This document shows, one piece after another, positions 1,514 through 43,421 of a stretch of 45,117 nt of DNA (the stretch's first letter is position 1; each line of letters opens with the position of its first letter). This stretch comes from Tepidimonas fonticaldi (GTDB taxonomy: Bacteria; Pseudomonadota; Gammaproteobacteria; Burkholderiales; Burkholderiaceae_C). The DNA lies in assembly GCF_007556755.1 (NCBI RefSeq), contig NZ_VJOO01000023.1, forward strand, positions 1-45,117, written 5' to 3'. The notes under the pieces were generated by a model that saw nothing but the letters and a program-made list of their open reading frames with translations, was not told the origin of the DNA and did no database searches. The translations under genes were made by a program, and so were the position numbers.

Positions 1514-2632
1514 TCAGGCCCCGAGCAGGATGCGCAGCATGCGGCGCAGCGGCTCGGCCGCGCCCCACAGCAGCTGGTCGCCGATCACGAAGGCCGAGAC
1601 GTACTCCGGCCCCATGTTGAGCTTGCGCACGCGGCCCACGCCCACCTGCAGCCCGCCGGTGATGGCGGCCGGGGTCAGCTCCTTGACGGTGAGGGCGCGG
1701 TCGTTCGGCACCCACTTGACCCAGGGGTTGCCGCTCTTGATGATGGCCTCGATCTCCTCCAGCGGCAGGTCGCGCTTGAGCTTGAGCGTCAGCGCCAGGC
1801 TGTGGCAGCGCATGGCGCCGATGCGCACGCACAGGCCATCGACGGGGATGGTCTGCTCGGTGCCGAGGATCTTGTTGACCTCCGCCTGGCCCTTCCACTC
1901 CTCCTTGGACTGGCCGTTGGGCAGCTGCACGTCGATCCAGGGGATGAGGCTGCCGGCCAGCGGCGCGCCGAAGAACTCGGTCGGCACGTCCTCGCGGATC
2001 GCCTGCGCGACTTTGCGATCGATCTCCAGGATCGCCGAGGCGGGGTCGGCCAGCAGGTCAGCCACCGCGCCGTGGATCACGCCCATGCCCTTGAGCAGCT
2101 CGCGCATGTTGTTGGCGCCGGCGCCGCTGGCGGCCTGGTAGGTCATGGAGCTGACCCACTCCACCAGGTTCTCGCGGAACAGGCCGCCCAGCCCCATCAG
2201 CAGGATGGAGTTGGTGCAGTTGCCGCCGATCCAGTTGCGGCCACCGGCGGCCAGCGCCTTGCGGATGACGTGCTCGTTGACCGGGTCGAGGACGATGACC
2301 GCGTCCGGCTCCATGCGCAGCGCGCTGGCCGCGTCGATCCAGTGCCCCTGCCAGCCGGCGGCACGCAGCTTGGGGAACACTTCCTTGGTGTAGTCGCCGC
2401 CCTGGCAGGTGATGACGATGTCGCACTCGGCCAGCGCGGCCAGGTCGTGCGCGTCGCGCAGCGTCTTGTGCGCCTTGGCCTGCGCCGGGGCGGGGCCGCC
2501 GGCGTTGGAGGTCGAGAAGAAGATCGGCTCGATCAGGTCGAAGTCGCCTTCGGCGATCATGCGGTCCATCAGGACCGAGCCGACCATGCCGCGCCAGCCG
2601 ACCAGGCCGACCTTGTTGCCAACGTTGCTCAT
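1514..2632 (-). CDS. asd: Aspartate-semialdehyde dehydrogenase
   Basis: Makes L-aspartate-4-semialdehyde from aspartyl phosphate with NADPH, the branch point to lysine/diaminopimelate, methionine, threonine and isoleucine. 372 residues, normal for the proteobacterial type. The N-terminal nucleotide loop is [14 protein letters not shown] (about residues 8-21). The catalytic cysteine is C139 in GGNCTNS, and the substrate-binding histidine lies in [12 protein letters not shown]. The start at 2632 (MSNVGNK) is chosen because GAAAGGG lies 8 nt upstream; the frame is open 25 codons further but that stretch is unconserved. A threonine-rich leader frame (2725-2823) precedes it. Confidence 0.97.
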
Positions 2633-2679
2633 CGCGTGTGCCCTTTCAGTAGAGGAAGTGGGGGAAACCCTTCTGCTGC

Positions 2680-2746
2680 CCGGCTCGTCTGGCCGGTGTG
2701 GGCGCACGACGAACCAGGCTGGAATCAGCCGGTAATGGTGGTCGTG
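2680..2746 (-). promoter_or_regulatory. Candidate attenuator structures in the asd 5' leader RNA
   Basis: Two pairings in the minus-strand transcript exclude each other. CACGAC inside the Thr codons (2741-2746) can pair with GUCGUG (2705-2710). GUUCGUC (2708-2714), which overlaps that second element, can pair with GACGAGC (2683-2689). A further CCGGC/GCCGG hairpin uses 2692-2696 and 2680-2684. A ribosome stalled on the Thr codons would block the first pairing and free the second, which is the logic of classical attenuation. I see no U-run terminator before asd, so the output could be Rho-dependent or act on translation. Pairings were found by eye only. Confidence 0.4.
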
Positions 2747-2823
2747 GTTTTGGTGGTGGCGCGCGCGCCCACCGCGGCCGGGGCGGCAGCGGGGTTCAGC
2801 TGGAACGGGCAGGGCGCGGGCAT
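2725..2823 (-). CDS. Candidate threonine-rich leader peptide of asd
   Basis: A 32-residue frame ending in [11 protein letters not shown] then TGA, 92 bases upstream of asd. Residues 23-31 hold seven Thr, one Lys and one Ile. This closely resembles the threonine/isoleucine run of the enterobacterial thr operon leader (thrL), and all three amino acids derive from the product of Asd. The N-terminal half is Pro/Ala-rich and may not matter. ATG at 2823 lies 9 nt after a -10-like TAGAAT, so translation may be leaderless; a GTG at codon 18 is an alternative start. That it is translated and regulates asd is inferred from codon content and position. Confidence 0.55.
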
Positions 2824-2832
2824 GATGGACCG

Positions 2833-2838
2833 ATTCTA
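2833..2838 (-). promoter_or_regulatory. -10-like hexamer upstream of the asd leader peptide
   Basis: TAGAAT on the minus strand, 5 of 6 to the sigma-70 consensus. No good -35 is seen at 16-18 bp. Transcription would start near 2826, just before the leader ATG, giving an asd leader RNA of roughly 195 nt. Confidence 0.4.
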
Positions 2839-2881: not shown

Positions 2882-3604
2882 TCAGCGGGCCGCGCGGGCG
2901 ACCGCCCAATCGGCAAATGCCGGCAGCAGCGCGGCGGCGTGGGGGGTGGGTTGCAGGGCGTCGCGCACGCTGGCCGGATCCATGCCGTGTTGGCGCAGCG
3001 TCTCGGCCAGGTGGTCCACATAGGCTTGCACGGCGGGCAGCGAAAACTCGGGGTGGAACTGCACGCCCCAGGCACACGGGCCGACCCGAAACGCCGCGTG
3101 TGGCTCCTGCGCATGGTGGGCCAGAGCCACGGCCGTCGAGGGCAACCGCACCACGCTTTGCAGATGCACCATGGGGGCGGCAAAACGCGCAGGCAACGCC
3201 CCGAACAGCGGGTCCGTCTGCGCGGCCGGATACCGTTCGACGTTCACCGTCCCCACGTCCGGCCCTTGCGGGCGGTAGCCGACCTCGCCCCCCAGGGCGT
3301 GCGCCAACAGTTGGTGGCCGTAGCAGATGCCCAGCACGGGACATTCGGCGGCCACGGCGTCGCGCAGCCACGCGGCCAGGGCCTCGCTCCACGCCGCACG
3401 CTCCGACACCATGGCGTGCGAGCCGGTGACGATTGCGCCCGCCATGGCATCGGGCGCGGGCGGCAGGCCCGCACGGGCATCATGGACCTGCACGGGAAGC
3501 GGCCCGCCCGCCAGCCCGGCGGCGATCCAGTCCTCGAAATCGCCGTGCGTGCGGGCCAGATCCGCCAAGGTCTCGCCCGCCTTGATGATCCAGATCGGCT
3601 TCAC
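2882..3604 (-). CDS. Type 1 (class I) glutamine amidotransferase-like protein
   Basis: Stand-alone class I glutamine amidotransferase, 240 residues, similar in layout to the GuaA glutaminase domain and to GMP-synthase-like GATase1 proteins. The nucleophile is C94 in GICYGHQ, with H184 and E186 in QFHPEF completing the triad, so it should hydrolyse glutamine or a gamma-glutamyl substrate. No synthetase domain is fused or adjacent, so the ammonia acceptor is unknown. It starts 13 bases after the leuB stop and is probably cotranscribed with leu genes, though nothing links it to leucine synthesis. The start is simply the first ATG; no strong ribosome binding site decides it. Confidence 0.85.
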   Translation of the reverse strand: MKPIWIIKAGETLADLARTHGDFEDWIAAGLAGGPLPVQVHDARAGLPPAPDAMAGAIVTGSHAMVSERAAWSEALAAWLRDAVAAECPVLGICYGHQLLAHALGGEVGYRPQGPDVGTVNVERYPAAQTDPLFGALPARFAAPMVHLQSVVRLPSTAVALAHHAQEPHAAFRVGPCAWGVQFHPEFSLPAVQAYVDHLAETLRQHGMDPASVRDALQPTPHAAALLPAFADWAVARAAR

Positions 3605-3617
3605 GTCACCCCGGCGG

Positions 3618-5415
<1,798 letters not shown>

Positions 5416-5544
5416 TTACTTCTTGCCAGCGTCCTGGATGACCTGGCCACCTTTCTGGATGTCCTTGCCGAGCCCCTGAACCGTGTTGCAGCCCGCAAGC
5501 AGCAGGCCCAGACAGGCGAGGGTGCAGCACAGCGCGCGTTTCAT
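5416..5544 (-). CDS. Entericidin A/B-like small lipoprotein
   Basis: A 42-residue lipoprotein between leuC and leuD. It starts MKRALCCTLACLG and has a signal peptide with lipobox LLAGC, the lipidated cysteine being C19. The mature part NTVQGLGKDIQKGGQVIQDAGKK matches the amphipathic entericidin pattern. AGGAG lies 6 nt before the ATG at 5544. Entericidins A and B are known as a stress-linked antidote/toxin lipoprotein pair; only one is present here, so a toxin-antidote role is not implied. It is probably an envelope protein made along with leucine enzymes. Confidence 0.85.
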   Translation of the reverse strand: MKRALCCTLACLGLLLAGCNTVQGLGKDIQKGGQVIQDAGKK

Positions 5545-5560
5545 GGTGAGCTCCTGGGGG

Positions 5561-6982
5561 TTAGACGATCTGGCGTACGTCGACGAAGTGGCCGTGGATG
5601 GCGGCTGCCGCCGCCATGGCCGGGCTGACCAGGTGCGTGCGCCCGCCCGCACCCTGGCGGCCTTCGAAGTTGCGGTTACTGGTCGAGGCGCAGCGCTCGC
5701 CGGGCTCCAGCCGGTCGGCGTTCATGGCCAGGCACATCGAGCAGCCGGGCTCGCGCCACTCGAAGCCCGCGGCGCGGAAAATCTCGTGCAGTCCCTCGCG
5801 CTCGGCCTGCTCCTTGACCTGACCCGATCCGGGCACGACCATCGCGAGCTTGACGTTGCGCGCCACCTTCTGGCCGAGTTTGCGCACCACGGCCGCCGCT
5901 TCGCGCATGTCCTCGATGCGGCTGTTGGTGCACGAGCCGATGAACACCTTGTCCACGGCGATGTCGGTCAGGGGTTTGCCCGGTTGCAGGCCCATGTACT
6001 GCAGGGCGCGCTCCATGGCGCTGCGCTTGACGGGGTCCTTCTCCTTGTCGGGATCGGGCACGCGCTCGGTCACGGGCAGTACCATCTCGGGCGAGGTGCC
6101 CCAGGTGACCTGAGGCAGGATCTGGGCGGCATCCAGCTCGACCACGGCGTCCCAATGGGCATCGGGGTCGGAGTGCAGGGTGCGCCAATGGGCGACGGCC
6201 TGATCCCACTCCACCCCGCTGGGGGCCATGGGCCGACCGCGCACGTACTCGAGGGTCTTGTCGTCCACCGCCACCAGGCCGGCGCGCGCGCCCGCCTCGA
6301 TGGCCATGTTGCAGACCGTCATGCGGCCTTCCATGCTCAGCGCGCGGATGGCGCTGCCACCAAACTCGATGGTGTAGCCGGTGCCGCCGGCGGTACCGAT
6401 GCGGCCGATGATGGCCAGCACGATGTCCTTGGCCGTGCAGCCGCGCGGCAGCGTCCCCTCCACGCGGATCAGCATGTTGCGGGCCTTTTTGGCCAGCAGC
6501 GTCTGCGTGGCCAGCACATGCTCGACCTCGCTGGTGCCAATGCCATGCGCCAGCGCACCGAACGCGCCGTGGGTGCTGGTGTGGCTGTCGCCGCACACCA
6601 CCGTCATGCCGGGCAGGGTGGCGCCGTTTTCCGGCCCGATGACGTGCACGATGCCCTGCCGCTTGCTCAGGAACGGAAAATACGCCGCCGCCCCGAACTC
6701 GCGGATGTTGGCATCCAGCGTGACGATCTGCTCCTTGCTGATCGGGTCAGCGATGCCGTCGTAGCCGTGCTCCCAGCCGGTGGTGGGGGTGTTGTGGTCG
6801 GCGGTGGCGACCACCGACGACACGCGCCACGGCTTGCGGCCGGCCACGCGCAGTCCCTCGAAGGCCTGCGGGCTGGTCACCTCGTGCACCAGATGGCGGT
6901 CGATGTAGAGGATGGCGGTGCCGTCCTCCTCGGTGTGGACGACGTGCTCGTCCCAGATCTTGTCGTAAAGGGTGCGTCCCAT
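5561..6982 (-). CDS. leuC: 3-isopropylmalate dehydratase large subunit
   Basis: Catalytic Fe-S subunit of isopropylmalate isomerase in leucine synthesis. 473 residues, usual length. Signatures include [19 protein letters not shown] and the cluster cysteines in [18 protein letters not shown] and [10 protein letters not shown]. First gene of the leuC-leuD-leuB run. A -10-like TACAAT lies about 30 bases upstream. I looked for a leucine-rich leader peptide in 6983-7094 and found none. Confidence 0.97.
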
Positions 6983-7094: not shown

Positions 7095-8405
7095 TCAGCG
7101 CTGGGCGATCGGCACGACGTCGCGCTTGGCCGCACCGGTGAAGAGCTGGCGCGGACGGCCGATCTTGTACTCGGGGTCGCCGATCATCTCGTTGAGCTGG
7201 GCGATCCAGCCCACCGTGCGCGCCAGCGCGAAGATGCCGGTGAACAGGTTGACCGGGATGCCGATGGCGCGCTGCACGATGCCGGAGTAGAAGTCCACGT
7301 TGGGGTAGAGCTTGCGCTGCACGAAGTAGTCGTCTTCCAGCGCGATCTTCTCCAGCGTCTTGGCCAGCTTGAACAGCGGGTCGTTTTCCAGCCCCAGCTC
7401 GCCCAGCACTTCGTTGCAGGTCTCCTGCATCAGCTTGGCGCGCGGGTCGTAGTTCTTGTAGACGCGGTGGCCAAAGCCCATCAGGCGCACGCCCGAGTTC
7501 TTGTCCTTGACCTTGGCGATGAATTCACCGATCTTGTCCACGCCGCCCATGGCCTGGATTTCTTCCAGCATGTTCAGGCAGGCCTCGTTGGCGCCGCCGT
7601 GGGCCGGGCCCCACAGGCAGGCCACGCCCGCGGCGATGGCCGCAAACGGGTTGGTGCCGGAGCTGCCGCACAGGCGCACGGTGGAGGTGGAGGCGTTTTG
7701 CTCGTGGTCCGCGTGCAGGATGAAGATGCGGTCCATCGCGCGCTCGAGCACCGGGTTGACTTTGTACTCCTCGCACGGCGTGCCGAACATCATGCGCAGG
7801 AAGTTGCCCGCGTAGCTCAGGTCGTTGCGCGGATACATGTACGGCTGGCCGATGCCGTACTTGTAGGCCATGGCGACCAGGGTGGGCAGCTTGGCGATCA
7901 GGCGGATGGCCGCGATCTCGCGGTGCTGCGGGTTGTTGATGTCGGTGCTGTCGTGGTAGAAGGCCGACATGGCGCCGATCAGGCCCGTGAGCACCGCCAT
8001 CGGGTGCGCATCGCGCCGGAAGCCACGCAGGAAGAACTGCATCTGCTCGTTGACCATGGTGTGCATGGTCACGCGCTTGCTGAAGTCGGCTTTTTGGTGT
8101 TCGTTGGGCAGCTCACCGTACAGCAGCAGGTAGCAGGTCTCGAGGTAGTCGCACTGCGTGGCGAGCTGCTCGATGGGGTAGCCGCGGTAGAGCAGCTCGC
8201 CCTTGTCGCCGTCGATGTAGGTGATGGACGATTGGCACGACGCCGTGGACAGGAACCCGGGGTCGTAGGTGAACATGCCGGTCTGGGCGTAGAGCTTGCG
8301 GATGTCGATCACGTCCGGACCCACGGTGCCGGAGTAGATCGGCAGCTCGACGCTGGGCGCGCCGTTGGAAAACGACAGCGTGGCTTTGTGGTCTTGCAGT
8401 TTCAT
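7095..8405 (-). CDS. gltA: Citrate synthase
   Basis: Condenses oxaloacetate with acetyl-CoA at the entry to the TCA cycle. 436 residues, typical of the hexameric Gram-negative type, opening [15 protein letters not shown]. Catalytic regions [15 protein letters not shown] and [16 protein letters not shown] are intact. It ends the run sdhC-sdhD-sdhA-sdhB-sdhE-gltA and lies 27 bases after sdhE, so it is probably transcribed with succinate dehydrogenase. Confidence 0.98.
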
Positions 8406-9480: not shown

Positions 9481-11286
9481 TCAGAACGTGCGGACCTTGG
9501 GCGGAATCGACTCGACCGTCAGCGGCTTGAGGTTGACCGGCTTGTAGGTCAGGGAGTTGTCGGCGCTGTGCCACAGGGTGTGCTTCATCCACACCTTGTC
9601 GTTGCGGCCCAGCGGGCACTCGGCGTCGTCCGGGCCACGCTCGTAGTCCTTGACGGTGTGCGCACCGCGGCATTCCTGGCGGGCGGCGGCGGACGTCATC
9701 GTGGCCTGGGCGGCTTCGATGAGGTTCTCGACCTCCAGCGCCTCCACGCGCGCCGTGTTGAACACCTTGGACTTGTCCTTGAGCACGATGGCGCCGACGC
9801 GCTCGCGCAGCGCGTTGATCTTGCACACCCCCTCGTCCATGCTGGCCTGGGTGCGGAAGACGCCCGCGTGCTGCTGCATGGTGGCGCGGATGTCGTTGGC
9901 CACGGCCTGCGCATACTCGCCGTCGGTGCGCGATTCCAGGCGGCTGAGCCGCTCCAGCGTGCGATCGGCGGCGTCCTTGGGCAGATCCTTGTGCTCGCGA
10001 CCGCGATCGAGGTGGGCCACGATGTGGTTGCCGGCCGCGCGGCCGAACACCAGCAGGTCCAGCAGCGAGTTGGTGCCGAGGCGGTTGGCGCCATGCACCG
10101 ACACACAGGAGCACTCGCCGACCGCGTACAGGCCGTTCACCACCTTCTGGCCGCCCTGGCCGTCCGGCACGACGACCTGGCCGTTGATGTTGGTCGGGAT
10201 GCCGCCCATCTGGTAGTGGATGGTCGGCACCACCGGGATCGGCTCCTTGGTGATGTCGACGTTGGCGAAGTTGATGCCGATCTCGTACACCGACGGCAGG
10301 CGCTTGTGGATCGTCTCCGGGCCCAGGTGGTCGAGTTTGAGCAGGATGTAGTCCTTGTTCGGCCCGCAGCCGCGGCCTTCCTTGATCTCCTGGTCCATGC
10401 AGCGGCTGACGAAGTCGCGCGGCGCCAGGTCCTTCAGCGTCGGCGCGTAGCGCTCCATGAAGCGCTCGCCGTTGCTGTTGAGCAAGATGGCGCCCTCGCC
10501 GCGGCAGCCCTCGGTCAGCAGCACGCCCGCGCCGGCCACGCCGGTCGGGTGGAACTGCCAGAACTCCATGTCCTGCAGCGGGATGCCGGCGCGCGCGGCC
10601 ATGCCCAGCCCGTCGCCGGTGTTGATGAAGGCGTTGGTGCTGGCGGCGTAGATGCGCCCGGCGCCACCGGTGGCCAGCAGCGTGGCCTTGGCCTCCAGGA
10701 TGTAGACGTCGCCGGTCTCCATCTCGAGTGCCGTCACGCCCACCACGTCGCCGTCGGCGTCGCGGATCAGGTCCAGCGCCATCCACTCGACGAAGAACGT
10801 GGTGCGCGCGGCGACGTTCTGCTGATACAGCGTGTGCAGCATCGCGTGGCCGGTGCGGTCGGCGGCGGCGCAGGCGCGCTGCACGGGCTTCTCGCCGTAG
10901 TTGGCGGTGTGGCCGCCGAACGGGCGCTGGTAGATGGTGCCGTCCGGGTTGCGGTCGAACGGCATGCCCATGTGCTCCAGCTCGTAGACGACCTTGGGCG
11001 CCTCGCGGCACATGAACTCGATGGCGTCCTGGTCACCGAGCCAGTCCGAGCCCTTGACGGTATCGTAGAAGTGGTAGTGCCAGTTGTCCTCGGACATGTT
11101 GCCCAGCGACGCGCCGATGCCGCCCTGCGCGGCGACCGTGTGCGAGCGCGTCGGGAACACCTTGGACAGCACCGCGACGTTGAGGCCGGCGCGCGCCAGT
11201 TGCAGCGACGCGCGCATGCCGGAGCCACCGGCGCCGACGATCACCACGTCGAAGCGCCGGCGGGGAAGGTTCGCAGTCAGGGTCAT
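9481..11286 (-). CDS. sdhA: Succinate dehydrogenase flavoprotein subunit
   Basis: Oxidises succinate to fumarate at a covalently bound FAD. 601 residues. The dinucleotide fold is VVIVGAGGSGMRASLQLA (about residues 14-31). The FAD-linking histidine is H49 in TRSHTVAAQGG, and the substrate region includes FHPTGVAGAG and the HGANRLGTNSLLDLLVFGR stretch. It lies 3 bases after sdhD, so translational coupling is likely. Confidence 0.98.
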   Translation of the reverse strand: MTLTANLPRRRFDVVIVGAGGSGMRASLQLARAGLNVAVLSKVFPTRSHTVAAQGGIGASLGNMSEDNWHYHFYDTVKGSDWLGDQDAIEFMCREAPKVVYELEHMGMPFDRNPDGTIYQRPFGGHTANYGEKPVQRACAAADRTGHAMLHTLYQQNVAARTTFFVEWMALDLIRDADGDVVGVTALEMETGDVYILEAKATLLATGGAGRIYAASTNAFINTGDGLGMAARAGIPLQDMEFWQFHPTGVAGAGVLLTEGCRGEGAILLNSNGERFMERYAPTLKDLAPRDFVSRCMDQEIKEGRGCGPNKDYILLKLDHLGPETIHKRLPSVYEIGINFANVDITKEPIPVVPTIHYQMGGIPTNINGQVVVPDGQGGQKVVNGLYAVGECSCVSVHGANRLGTNSLLDLLVFGRAAGNHIVAHLDRGREHKDLPKDAADRTLERLSRLESRTDGEYAQAVANDIRATMQQHAGVFRTQASMDEGVCKINALRERVGAIVLKDKSKVFNTARVEALEVENLIEAAQATMTSAAARQECRGAHTVKDYERGPDDAECPLGRNDKVWMKHTLWHSADNSLTYKPVNLKPLTVESIPPKVRTF

Positions 11287-42453: not shown

Positions 42454-43421
42454 GCCGTGCCCTCCGATGCGGTGGGATAGGGGTGGGTGTCGCGCCAATG
42501 GCGGGCGATGTCCACGCGCCGCGCCACCCAGACGTGCGGATGCCGCTGCACATGGTCCAAAAAGCGTTGCAGTGCCCCGATGCGGCCGGGGCGCCCGAGC
42601 AGCCGGCAGTGCATGCCGATGCTCATCATCTGCGGGCGGTCCAGCCCGTCCGGATCGCCCTCGGCATACAGCGCGTCGAAGGTGTCGCGCAAATAGTGGA
42701 AGAACGGATCGGCGTGCGAATAGCCCTGCGGCAGCGAAAACCGCATGTCGTTGCAGTCCAGCGTGTACGGCACCACCAGGTGCGGCACCACGGTGCCGTC
42801 GCTGCGGCGCACGCGCATCCAGAACGGCAGGTCGTCGCCGTAGTAGTCGCTGTCGTACAGGAAGCCACCGTGGTCCACCACCAGCCGCCGCGTGTTCGGG
42901 CTGTCGCGCCCCGTGTACCAGCCCAGCGGGGGCTCGCCGGTCAGGGCGGTCTGGATGGCCACCGCCTGCGCCAGGTGGGCGCGCTCGGTGGCCTCGTCCA
43001 CCTGCTGGTAGTGGATCCACTTGAGGCCGTGGCAGGCGATTTCGTGGCCGGCGGCCCGGCAGGCGGCCGCCACCTCGGGGTGGCGCTGCAGTGCGCTGGC
43101 CACGCCAAATACGGTCAGCGGCAGACCGCGGGATTCGAACTCGCGCAGAATGCGCCAGACCCCCACGCGCGAGCCGTACTCGTAGATGCTCTCCATGCTC
43201 AGGTGGCGGTCGGGGTAGGCGGCCGGCGCGAACATTTCGGACAAAAACGTCTCGCTGGCCGCGTCGCCGTGCAGCACGCAGTTCTCGCCGCCTTCTTCGT
43301 AATTGAGGACGAATTGCACGGCGATGCGCGCGCCCCCCGGCCAGCGCGCGTGCGGCGGGCGGCGGCCATAGCCGATCAGGTCGCGCGGATAGGGGGCGGT
43401 GCTGTCGTACACGGTGGGCAT
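42450..43421 (-). CDS. puuE: Allantoinase PuuE (polysaccharide-deacetylase type)
   Basis: Opens the allantoin ring to allantoate; PuuE is the cofactor-independent allantoinase related to NodB deacetylases. 323 residues. Family blocks: DLIGYGRRPPHARWPGGARIAVQFVLNYEEGGE (split here, residues about 14-46), ASETFLSEMF, YEYGSRVGVWRI, GHEIACHGLKWIHYQ, GWYTGRDSPNTRRLV and YDSDYYGDDLPFW. It lies between the gntR/FCD gene and uraD-allC. Confidence 0.95.
   Translation of the reverse strand: MPTVYDSTAPYPRDLIGYGRRPPHARWPGGARIAVQFVLNYEEGGENCVLHGDAASETFLSEMFAPAAYPDRHLSMESIYEYGSRVGVWRILREFESRGLPLTVFGVASALQRHPEVAAACRAAGHEIACHGLKWIHYQQVDEATERAHLAQAVAIQTALTGEPPLGWYTGRDSPNTRRLVVDHGGFLYDSDYYGDDLPFWMRVRRSDGTVVPHLVVPYTLDCNDMRFSLPQGYSHADPFFHYLRDTFDALYAEGDPDGLDRPQMMSIGMHCRLLGRPGRIGALQRFLDHVQRHPHVWVARRVDIARHWRDTHPYPTASEGTA

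Follow-up and report, generated by a model that had tools for sequence, protein, structure and literature searches.

The 32-codon frame that precedes asd in Tepidimonas fonticaldi, together with the RNA that follows it, very probably constitutes a leader-peptide regulator of asd. A more specific reading, in which a ribosome stalling in the leader sets asd translation by threonine, lysine and isoleucine supply through sequestration of the asd Shine-Dalgarno sequence, is put forward as probable rather than near-certain. Aspartate-semialdehyde dehydrogenase (Asd) feeds the synthesis of lysine, threonine, methionine, isoleucine and cell-wall diaminopimelate; Thr, Lys and Ile are end products of the pathway it supplies.

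The leader frame and its surroundings

The first-pass annotation described a Thr-rich frame of 32 codons on the strand of asd and 92 nt before it, and this frame is present in the window (the whole analyzed stretch of 45,117 nucleotides) exactly as noted. It holds seven Thr within the nine residues TTKTTTTIT, and its stop codon is separated by 92 nt from the start of asd at position 2632, on the minus strand like the leader. The locus thus presents a short frame in which the regulatory codons come towards the end, on the same strand as a pathway gene and directly upstream of it. In minus-strand order, its features are as follows:

3618..4688, minus strand: leuB, ending VVRALG, without the Thr/Lys/Ile tail of fused relatives
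2882..3604, minus strand: glutamine amidotransferase gene (profile matches), between leuB and the leader and probably outside the device
2833..2838, minus strand: TAGAAT, a -10-like hexamer 9 nt ahead of the ATG that opens the leader
2725..2823, minus strand: leader peptide frame, 32 codons, ATG start (open reading frame list; recurrence in relatives)
2728..2760, minus strand: regulatory codons, Thr with Lys and Ile, 11 residues (open reading frame list; per-codon conservation and synonymous variation)
1514..2632, minus strand: asd, aspartate-semialdehyde dehydrogenase, 372 aa (TIGR01745 asd_gamma, 657 bits)

The minus-strand gene order is leuC, a small lipoprotein-like gene, leuD, leuB, glutamine amidotransferase, leader and asd, the names of leuC, leuD and the lipoprotein having been assigned by eye from sequence. 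The frame between leuD and leuC (positions 5416-5652), which contains MKRALCCTLACLGLLLAGCNTVQGLGKDIQKGGQVIQDAGKK, presumably encodes an entericidin-like small lipoprotein. In one relative (locus L002), leuB lies, by eye, directly before the leader region, with no glutamine amidotransferase gene between.

Two frames in the window hold at least seven Thr in nine residues (the leader and one near 42833-42859), compared with a mean of 0.02 such frames in 60 first-order Markov random windows, of which 1/60 had any. The earlier judgment that a chance origin of the run is unlikely is borne out by this comparison; recurrence in relatives is the stronger evidence and rules chance out. The second such frame (42833-42859, minus strand) lies inside a 104-residue open frame, and two more frames carry six Thr in nine residues (11064-11090 and 7931-7957).

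No second copy of the element stands out in the genome of the window. A pattern search for its core gave 85 matches versus 86 in a reversed control; among the eight matches inspected, one is the window's own and the other seven show no second leader element. The next-best match of covariance model R1 (see below) in this genome reaches only E 0.16. Between hom and the aminotransferase-like gene before it (named by eye), the frame list contains no forward leader frame of at least 25 aa.

Recurrence and codon content of the leader

The asd gene was taken from 30 relatives irrespective of any leader, and 17 family genomes, including that of the window, have it. In 15 of these 17 loci a Thr/Lys/Ile-rich tail precedes the same downstream RNA; the tail ends a free leader peptide in 12 and the LeuB protein in 3. 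The check on relatives proposed by the first-pass annotation, a short Thr-rich frame upstream of asd, therefore gives a free leader in 12/17 and a LeuB-fused one in 3/17. Among the 15 is L018, whose tail (KEIAIKKIITKS) is Lys/Ile-rich with few Thr. The two other loci are L020 (genome G011), with a weak tail (GKATTN), and L010 (G006, from the window's genus), where the element is absent and leuB runs nearly straight into asd. As to the lineage to which the earlier reading assigned the element, it is indeed present in the window's genus, but it is not a Tepidimonas oddity and spans the family.

Among the best 80 named asd loci, the element occurs in Tepidimonas, Tepidicella, Macromonas, Giesbergeria, Comamonas, Melaminivora, Malikia, Xylophilus, Limnohabitans and others. 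It is absent from two Comamonas records (L057 and L090) and from the listed asd records of Oxalobacteraceae, Neisseriales-type, Rhodocyclales and Gallionellaceae, the groups being named in part from record titles. Covariance model R1, built from 42 copies, matches 236/299 family genomes and 118/141 genera. Because R1 models the codons too, and the tail frame was picked as the richest one, the least biased figure for recurrence is the 15/17 given above.

Copy counts rest on a collection from which L010, L012, L013, L017, L019, L022-L038, L139, L141, L143 and near-identical duplicates had been left out; L012, L013, L017, L019 and L022-L027 were screened instead within the set of 127 asd loci described below. 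Pattern processing kept 134 distinct copies and missed 63 loci. These comprise 50 named asd loci, mostly of other families and including L057 and L090, and 13 family matches, 12 of which have the element by eye, L183 being not placeable. L020 and L227 are excluded from the counts over 132 and 144 copies.

The tail is the best-kept part of the frame. In 105 free copies (those with a separate leader peptide), the last nine codons contain on average 7.36 Thr, Lys and Ile versus 1.08 in the preceding nine, and 4.2 Thr versus 0.6; in 27 copies fused to LeuB, the corresponding means are 6.63 versus 0.37, and 3.0 versus 0.15 for Thr. These tail counts are biased upward, since the frame chosen was the stop-ending one richest in Thr/Lys/Ile. 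At least three Thr occur among the nine tail codons of 105/105 free and 21/27 fused copies, Lys in 104/105 and 26/27, and Ile in 105/105 and 26/27. The codons just before the tail drift among the 132 copies, so that the regulatory codons are kept while the remaining peptide changes. Within the tail, Thr is encoded synonymously by ACC, ACG, ACA and ACT (three or four of these codons at each of positions -4 to -6 of free leaders), and Lys by both AAA and AAG. From sequence, the tail codons look selected as codons. Their distance from the downstream RNA is also nearly fixed: a stop codon lies 13-17 nt before TCGTC in 132/132 copies (searched within 9-26 nt).

In the fused form, the tail is a C-terminal extension of LeuB (27/132 copies, or 32/142 by a slightly different rule), ending for example in MGDAVVAAITKTTIKG-stop. 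Extensions of this kind, rich in Thr/Lys/Ile, are found in L016, L018, L021, L042, L059, L097 and others, and are absent from the LeuB of the window. The distribution of free and fused forms requires at least 17 changes of form on a tree of partial Asd sequences, a quick tree with few supported branches. Selection on the LeuB tail may act through sensing and not through the enzyme.

Free leaders share a further property, namely the spacing of a putative promoter. When the region 4-25 nt ahead of the leader ATG is searched for -10-like hexamers, the best one lies 6-10 nt from the ATG in 95/103 free copies, TACAAT being the commonest. This spacing predicts that transcription begins on the ATG or a little ahead of it and suggests a leader mRNA that is leaderless or nearly so. 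A two-hexamer promoter scan returned 0 sites between 2400 and 3700, and no good -35 was seen by eye upstream of the leader. In L011, an inverted repeat (GATGCGGCGCCTCACGCCGCATC) just upstream of the leader -10 box overlaps the expected -35 region; it may act as an operator or terminate leuB transcription.

Beyond the family, a Thr/Ile/Lys tail (e.g., KTITTKTIIKR) precedes asd in 27/30 Burkholderiaceae loci (L297-L326, the best-scoring 30 of 77 matched genomes). The RNA downstream differs in these loci, often carrying TTCCCCGC/GCGGGGAA and GTCGTGCCCG or a close variant. Family f14 has the tail in 3/3 loci (L234, L236 and L247; e.g., ITTIITKKTKTIILV), and behind its leaders come stretches of CACCT type, potential partners of the Shine-Dalgarno sequence. 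In the screen of 127 asd loci, mostly from other families and unevenly sampled, 118 lack the tail and 9 have it, 4 of the latter belonging to the window's family or Comamonadaceae. The Asd proteins of the family fall into two classes of identity to that of the window (87-97% and 67-68%), which suggests that asd was replaced while the leader element stayed.

Downstream helices and the proposed switch

The RNA between the regulatory codons and asd contains the following elements:

2717..2730, minus strand: P1, a short hairpin spanning the stop codon of the leader (GGCTG / CAGCC; perfect stem test)
2708..2718, minus strand: arm A (CCTGGTTCGTC), its 5' half reachable by a ribosome on the leader stop
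2700..2707, minus strand: segment A' (GTGCGCCC), proposed anti-Shine-Dalgarno, also pairing with arm B inside the A:C hairpin
2692..2697, minus strand: arm B (ACCGGC), with which arm C can pair in place of A (covariation)
2679..2689, minus strand: arm C (GACGAGCCGGG), pairing with A or B (covariation)
2647..2676, minus strand: pyrimidine-rich spacer with a weak hairpin D and no U-tract in the window's species (folding, terminator scan)
2641..2646, minus strand: asd Shine-Dalgarno AAAGGG (sequence)

P1 forms a perfect stem of at least 5 bp in 125/132 copies versus 53/132 with its 3' side shuffled. The A:C helix is paired in 96.2% of the cells of a 103-row alignment, compared with at most 52% when one side is slid, and its covariation score is 0.200 versus 0.143 in shuffled alignments (0/500), the alignment having itself been fitted to A:C and three of its 103 rows being weak extra matches. 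Two other measures lend it no support: the number of A:C pair types (13 versus 14.0 shuffled, 497/500) and of A:C pairs changed on both sides (4 versus 3.0, 35/500). When arms are permuted among 144 copies, own arms form 10.72 of 11 A:C pairs versus 10.61 (0/5000), and 5.83 of 6 B:C pairs versus 5.70 (0/5000). The latter were counted register-free, with B in its best register, since the model alignment sets B out of register. Individual changes illustrate the dual pairing of arm C: position 8 of C is A in 14/144 copies, and both its partner in A and its partner in B are U in 14/14; A and C change together in L187 and L213; in L200 a joint change of B and C sacrifices two A:C pairs.

Segment A' is complementary to the asd Shine-Dalgarno and to the bases 3' of it. 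Its counterpart in the window (2643-2636, GGGCACAC) pairs with A' at 7/8 positions by eye and by 6 pairs in the predicted duplex. Over 94 unique combinations, the pairing energy of A' with its own Shine-Dalgarno is -10.56 versus -9.97 when permuted (0/5000), compared with 1742/5000 for a reversed-Shine-Dalgarno control. A neighboring control stretch upstream of the Shine-Dalgarno, with a tiny effect, reaches 23/5000, which indicates that relatedness inflates such permutation tests. Of independent pairs, only three fall on supported branches of the tree. Co-changed combinations include GTGTGCCC with GGGCACAC (L004 and L008), TCGCCC with GGGCGA (L018), ATGCCC with GGGCAT (L089) and GTGCGCCT with AGGCGCAT (L181); L140 is a counter-example, with GTGTGCCC and GGGCGTT and no covariation. 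Thus, Shine-Dalgarno complementarity is kept by covariation when relatedness is ignored, although some copies, L140 among them, are non-covarying. As A' pairs with B inside the predicted A:C hairpin, it cannot serve both B and the Shine-Dalgarno. The downstream helices are mutually exclusive and conserved by covariation in computations from which relatedness is not removed.

The leader's Arg-Ala codons (GCGCGC) looked by eye like a further partner of A' (GTGCGCCC), but this pairing was rejected, its own and permuted energies being no different (1293/5000). Both sequences co-occur in 75/104 free copies, and GTGCG is found within A' in 1/27 fused copies.

These elements probably form a switch. 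The Thr, Lys and Ile codons would let the translating ribosome test the supply of charged tRNA and set asd expression by the outcome. With good supply, the ribosome would reach the leader stop and cover the 5' half of arm A, so that C pairs with B; the free A' would then pair with the asd Shine-Dalgarno (GUGCGCCC with GGGCACAC in the window), closing a three-way junction and keeping asd translation low. With poor supply, it would stall in the Thr/Lys/Ile codons and leave arm A free; A:C would form, A' would be held against B in the same hairpin, and the Shine-Dalgarno would be open and asd translated. We infer in this scheme that the leader is translated, that ribosomes stall in it, the direction of the switch, and that translation is the controlled step; a response to charged tRNA is what the codon content would imply.

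Folding with a mock ribosome, masking the RNA to 12 nt before the leader stop (stalled) or to 12 nt past it (at stop), gives a partial match to this scheme. In full-length folds, A:C is dominant in 76/132 copies when stalled versus 4/132 with the ribosome at the stop, and copies with at least three A':Shine-Dalgarno pairs increase from 57/132 to 120/132; the other 12/132 stay below three with the ribosome at the stop as well. When the transcript is cut off right behind arm C, A:C is dominant in 128/132 copies when stalled and still in 101/132 at the stop; for most copies, folding thus predicts no decision at this point. Openness of the Shine-Dalgarno is 0.35 stalled versus 0.25 at the stop (of 134 copies, 54 gain and 11 lose on stalling), and unchanged in fused copies (0.32 versus 0.33). 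In the eight copies folded for the window and its genus, equilibrium folds of the full RNA at 37-60 °C have B:C with A':Shine-Dalgarno in both ribosome states. Opening on stalling is therefore seen on average in free copies, and not in fused copies or in the window's genus. With such mixed support from predicted structures, ribosome-dependent folding is the weakest link of the switch model. For 20 Burkholderiaceae copies, folding predicts an openness of 0.46 stalled versus 0.52, without gain on stalling, and the Shine-Dalgarno model does not fit them.

Classical transcription attenuation is a rather unlikely account of the element. As in the thr operon of enterobacteria, the leader ribosome would then determine whether a terminator or an antiterminator forms ahead of asd. 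Known attenuators have the same leader anatomy, and a hairpin of -5 kcal/mol or below followed by a U-tract occurs in 39/134 copies (e.g., GGGGCTTACCGCCCC-ATCTTTTG in L042) versus 5/134 after one mononucleotide shuffle each. However, the U-tract hairpin comes after the conserved arms A, B and C, with no overlap seen, no terminator separates leader and asd in the window, and the sole terminator-like site of the window-region scan falls inside asd. As a general mechanism, an intrinsic terminator is rejected, only 39/134 copies having one; transcription attenuation may operate in some lineages. The first-pass reading of Thr-sensing attenuation of asd hence stands in the kind of leader and the recurrent tail (15/17), but less well in its classical form, a terminator-like hairpin with a U-tract being absent from 8/9 copies of the window's genus, that of the window among them (L009 has one). 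Together with the fact that the covarying partner is the asd Shine-Dalgarno, which speaks against transcription attenuation, this makes translational control more likely here.

Other readings are less probable still. Rho could stop transcription in the C-rich leader when asd is untranslated or the leader ribosome is released; in the window, the stretch from arm C to the Shine-Dalgarno is rich in pyrimidines and has no U-tract, and Rho has been suggested for terminator-less leader peptides in Actinobacteria in the excerpted text of PMC1262725. Acting alone, it would leave the A':Shine-Dalgarno covariation unexplained, and Rho-dependent attenuation is accordingly rated improbable. A cis-acting RNA recognized by a protein or metabolite, with the short frame incidental, would agree with the strong conservation of the A-C core in sequence and structure (13 invariant columns in 42 copies). 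It is nonetheless very improbable: the codons look selected as codons (synonymous Thr and Lys variation), the spacing from the end of the frame to arm A hardly varies, fused copies carry similar residues on LeuB, and no Rfam family matches at the gathering threshold, three relaxed matches being far below their cut-offs. That the 32-residue product is a functional small protein is hardly credible, although many relatives share an N-terminus such as MFAARPF, because that of the window and many others differ, the tail is best kept, 27/132 copies have no free peptide, and no Pfam or NCBIfam profile matches at E 0.001.

Relation to known regulators and biological meaning

Among the full-text literature matches listed, from a search outside which most subscription papers lie, none describes an asd leader peptide in these bacteria; nor does the element match any Rfam family at the gathering threshold. 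The thrL leader of enterobacterial thrABC is a short peptide with a Thr/Ile run before its stop and alternative RNA helices downstream. Both elements thus have such a run just before the stop, upstream of an aspartate-pathway gene, and alternative helices after it. The window's element differs in serving asd rather than thrABC, in including Lys, in a probably leaderless mRNA, in having no intrinsic terminator with a U-tract before asd as a thrL-type attenuator would, and in a switch that covaries with the asd Shine-Dalgarno. Rfam Thr_leader gives no match at its gathering threshold or in the relaxed search (E up to 10).

The asd RNA motif resembles the element in preceding asd, the gene for which it is named. 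The motif of Lactobacillales is entered as RF01732 in the table of PMC2864571, as excerpted. It belongs to another phylum, and the window has no match to it at gathering or relaxed threshold. In ermC-type attenuators, drug-induced ribosome stalling in the leader opens the Shine-Dalgarno of the next gene. The opening of a downstream Shine-Dalgarno by stalling in a leader frame is also proposed here, but the stall signal there is a drug, whereas here it would be too little charged tRNA-Thr, -Lys or -Ile. PMC2965389 mentions translational attenuators of this type on antibiotic-resistance genes.

Nearest in kind are the thr-operon leader and, as far as the excerpted text describes it, the LEU element of actinobacterial leuA (PMC1262725). 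The latter also combines a leader peptide containing regulatory codons with an RNA able to close over the Shine-Dalgarno of a biosynthetic gene (PMC1262725, same excerpt). In the LEU element it is the leucine codons that bind the Shine-Dalgarno, forming the foot of a pseudoknot, and control through the peptide was judged unlikely by the authors (PMC1262725). In the element of the window, in contrast, a separate segment, A', pairs and would be released by the A/B/C switch, and the gene, the amino acids and the phylum are others than those of the excerpted account (PMC1262725).

A wider proposal, with about even prospects, is that the LeuB C-terminus of fused copies acts as a sensor for asd and couples leucine synthesis to the aspartate pathway. 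Along with the free form, it would make up a translational switch that senses Thr, Lys and Ile throughout the family and changes between two forms, a free leader that is leaderless and the tail of an enzyme. If true, the LeuB-fused form would show the recruitment of a protein's own C-terminus as a sensor. A peptide reading three end products at the branch point would, if confirmed, be a compact multi-input sensor. Translational attenuation is better known from antibiotic-induced genes, and if the switch acts on translation, a proteobacterial example responding to amino acids would be added to that mechanism.
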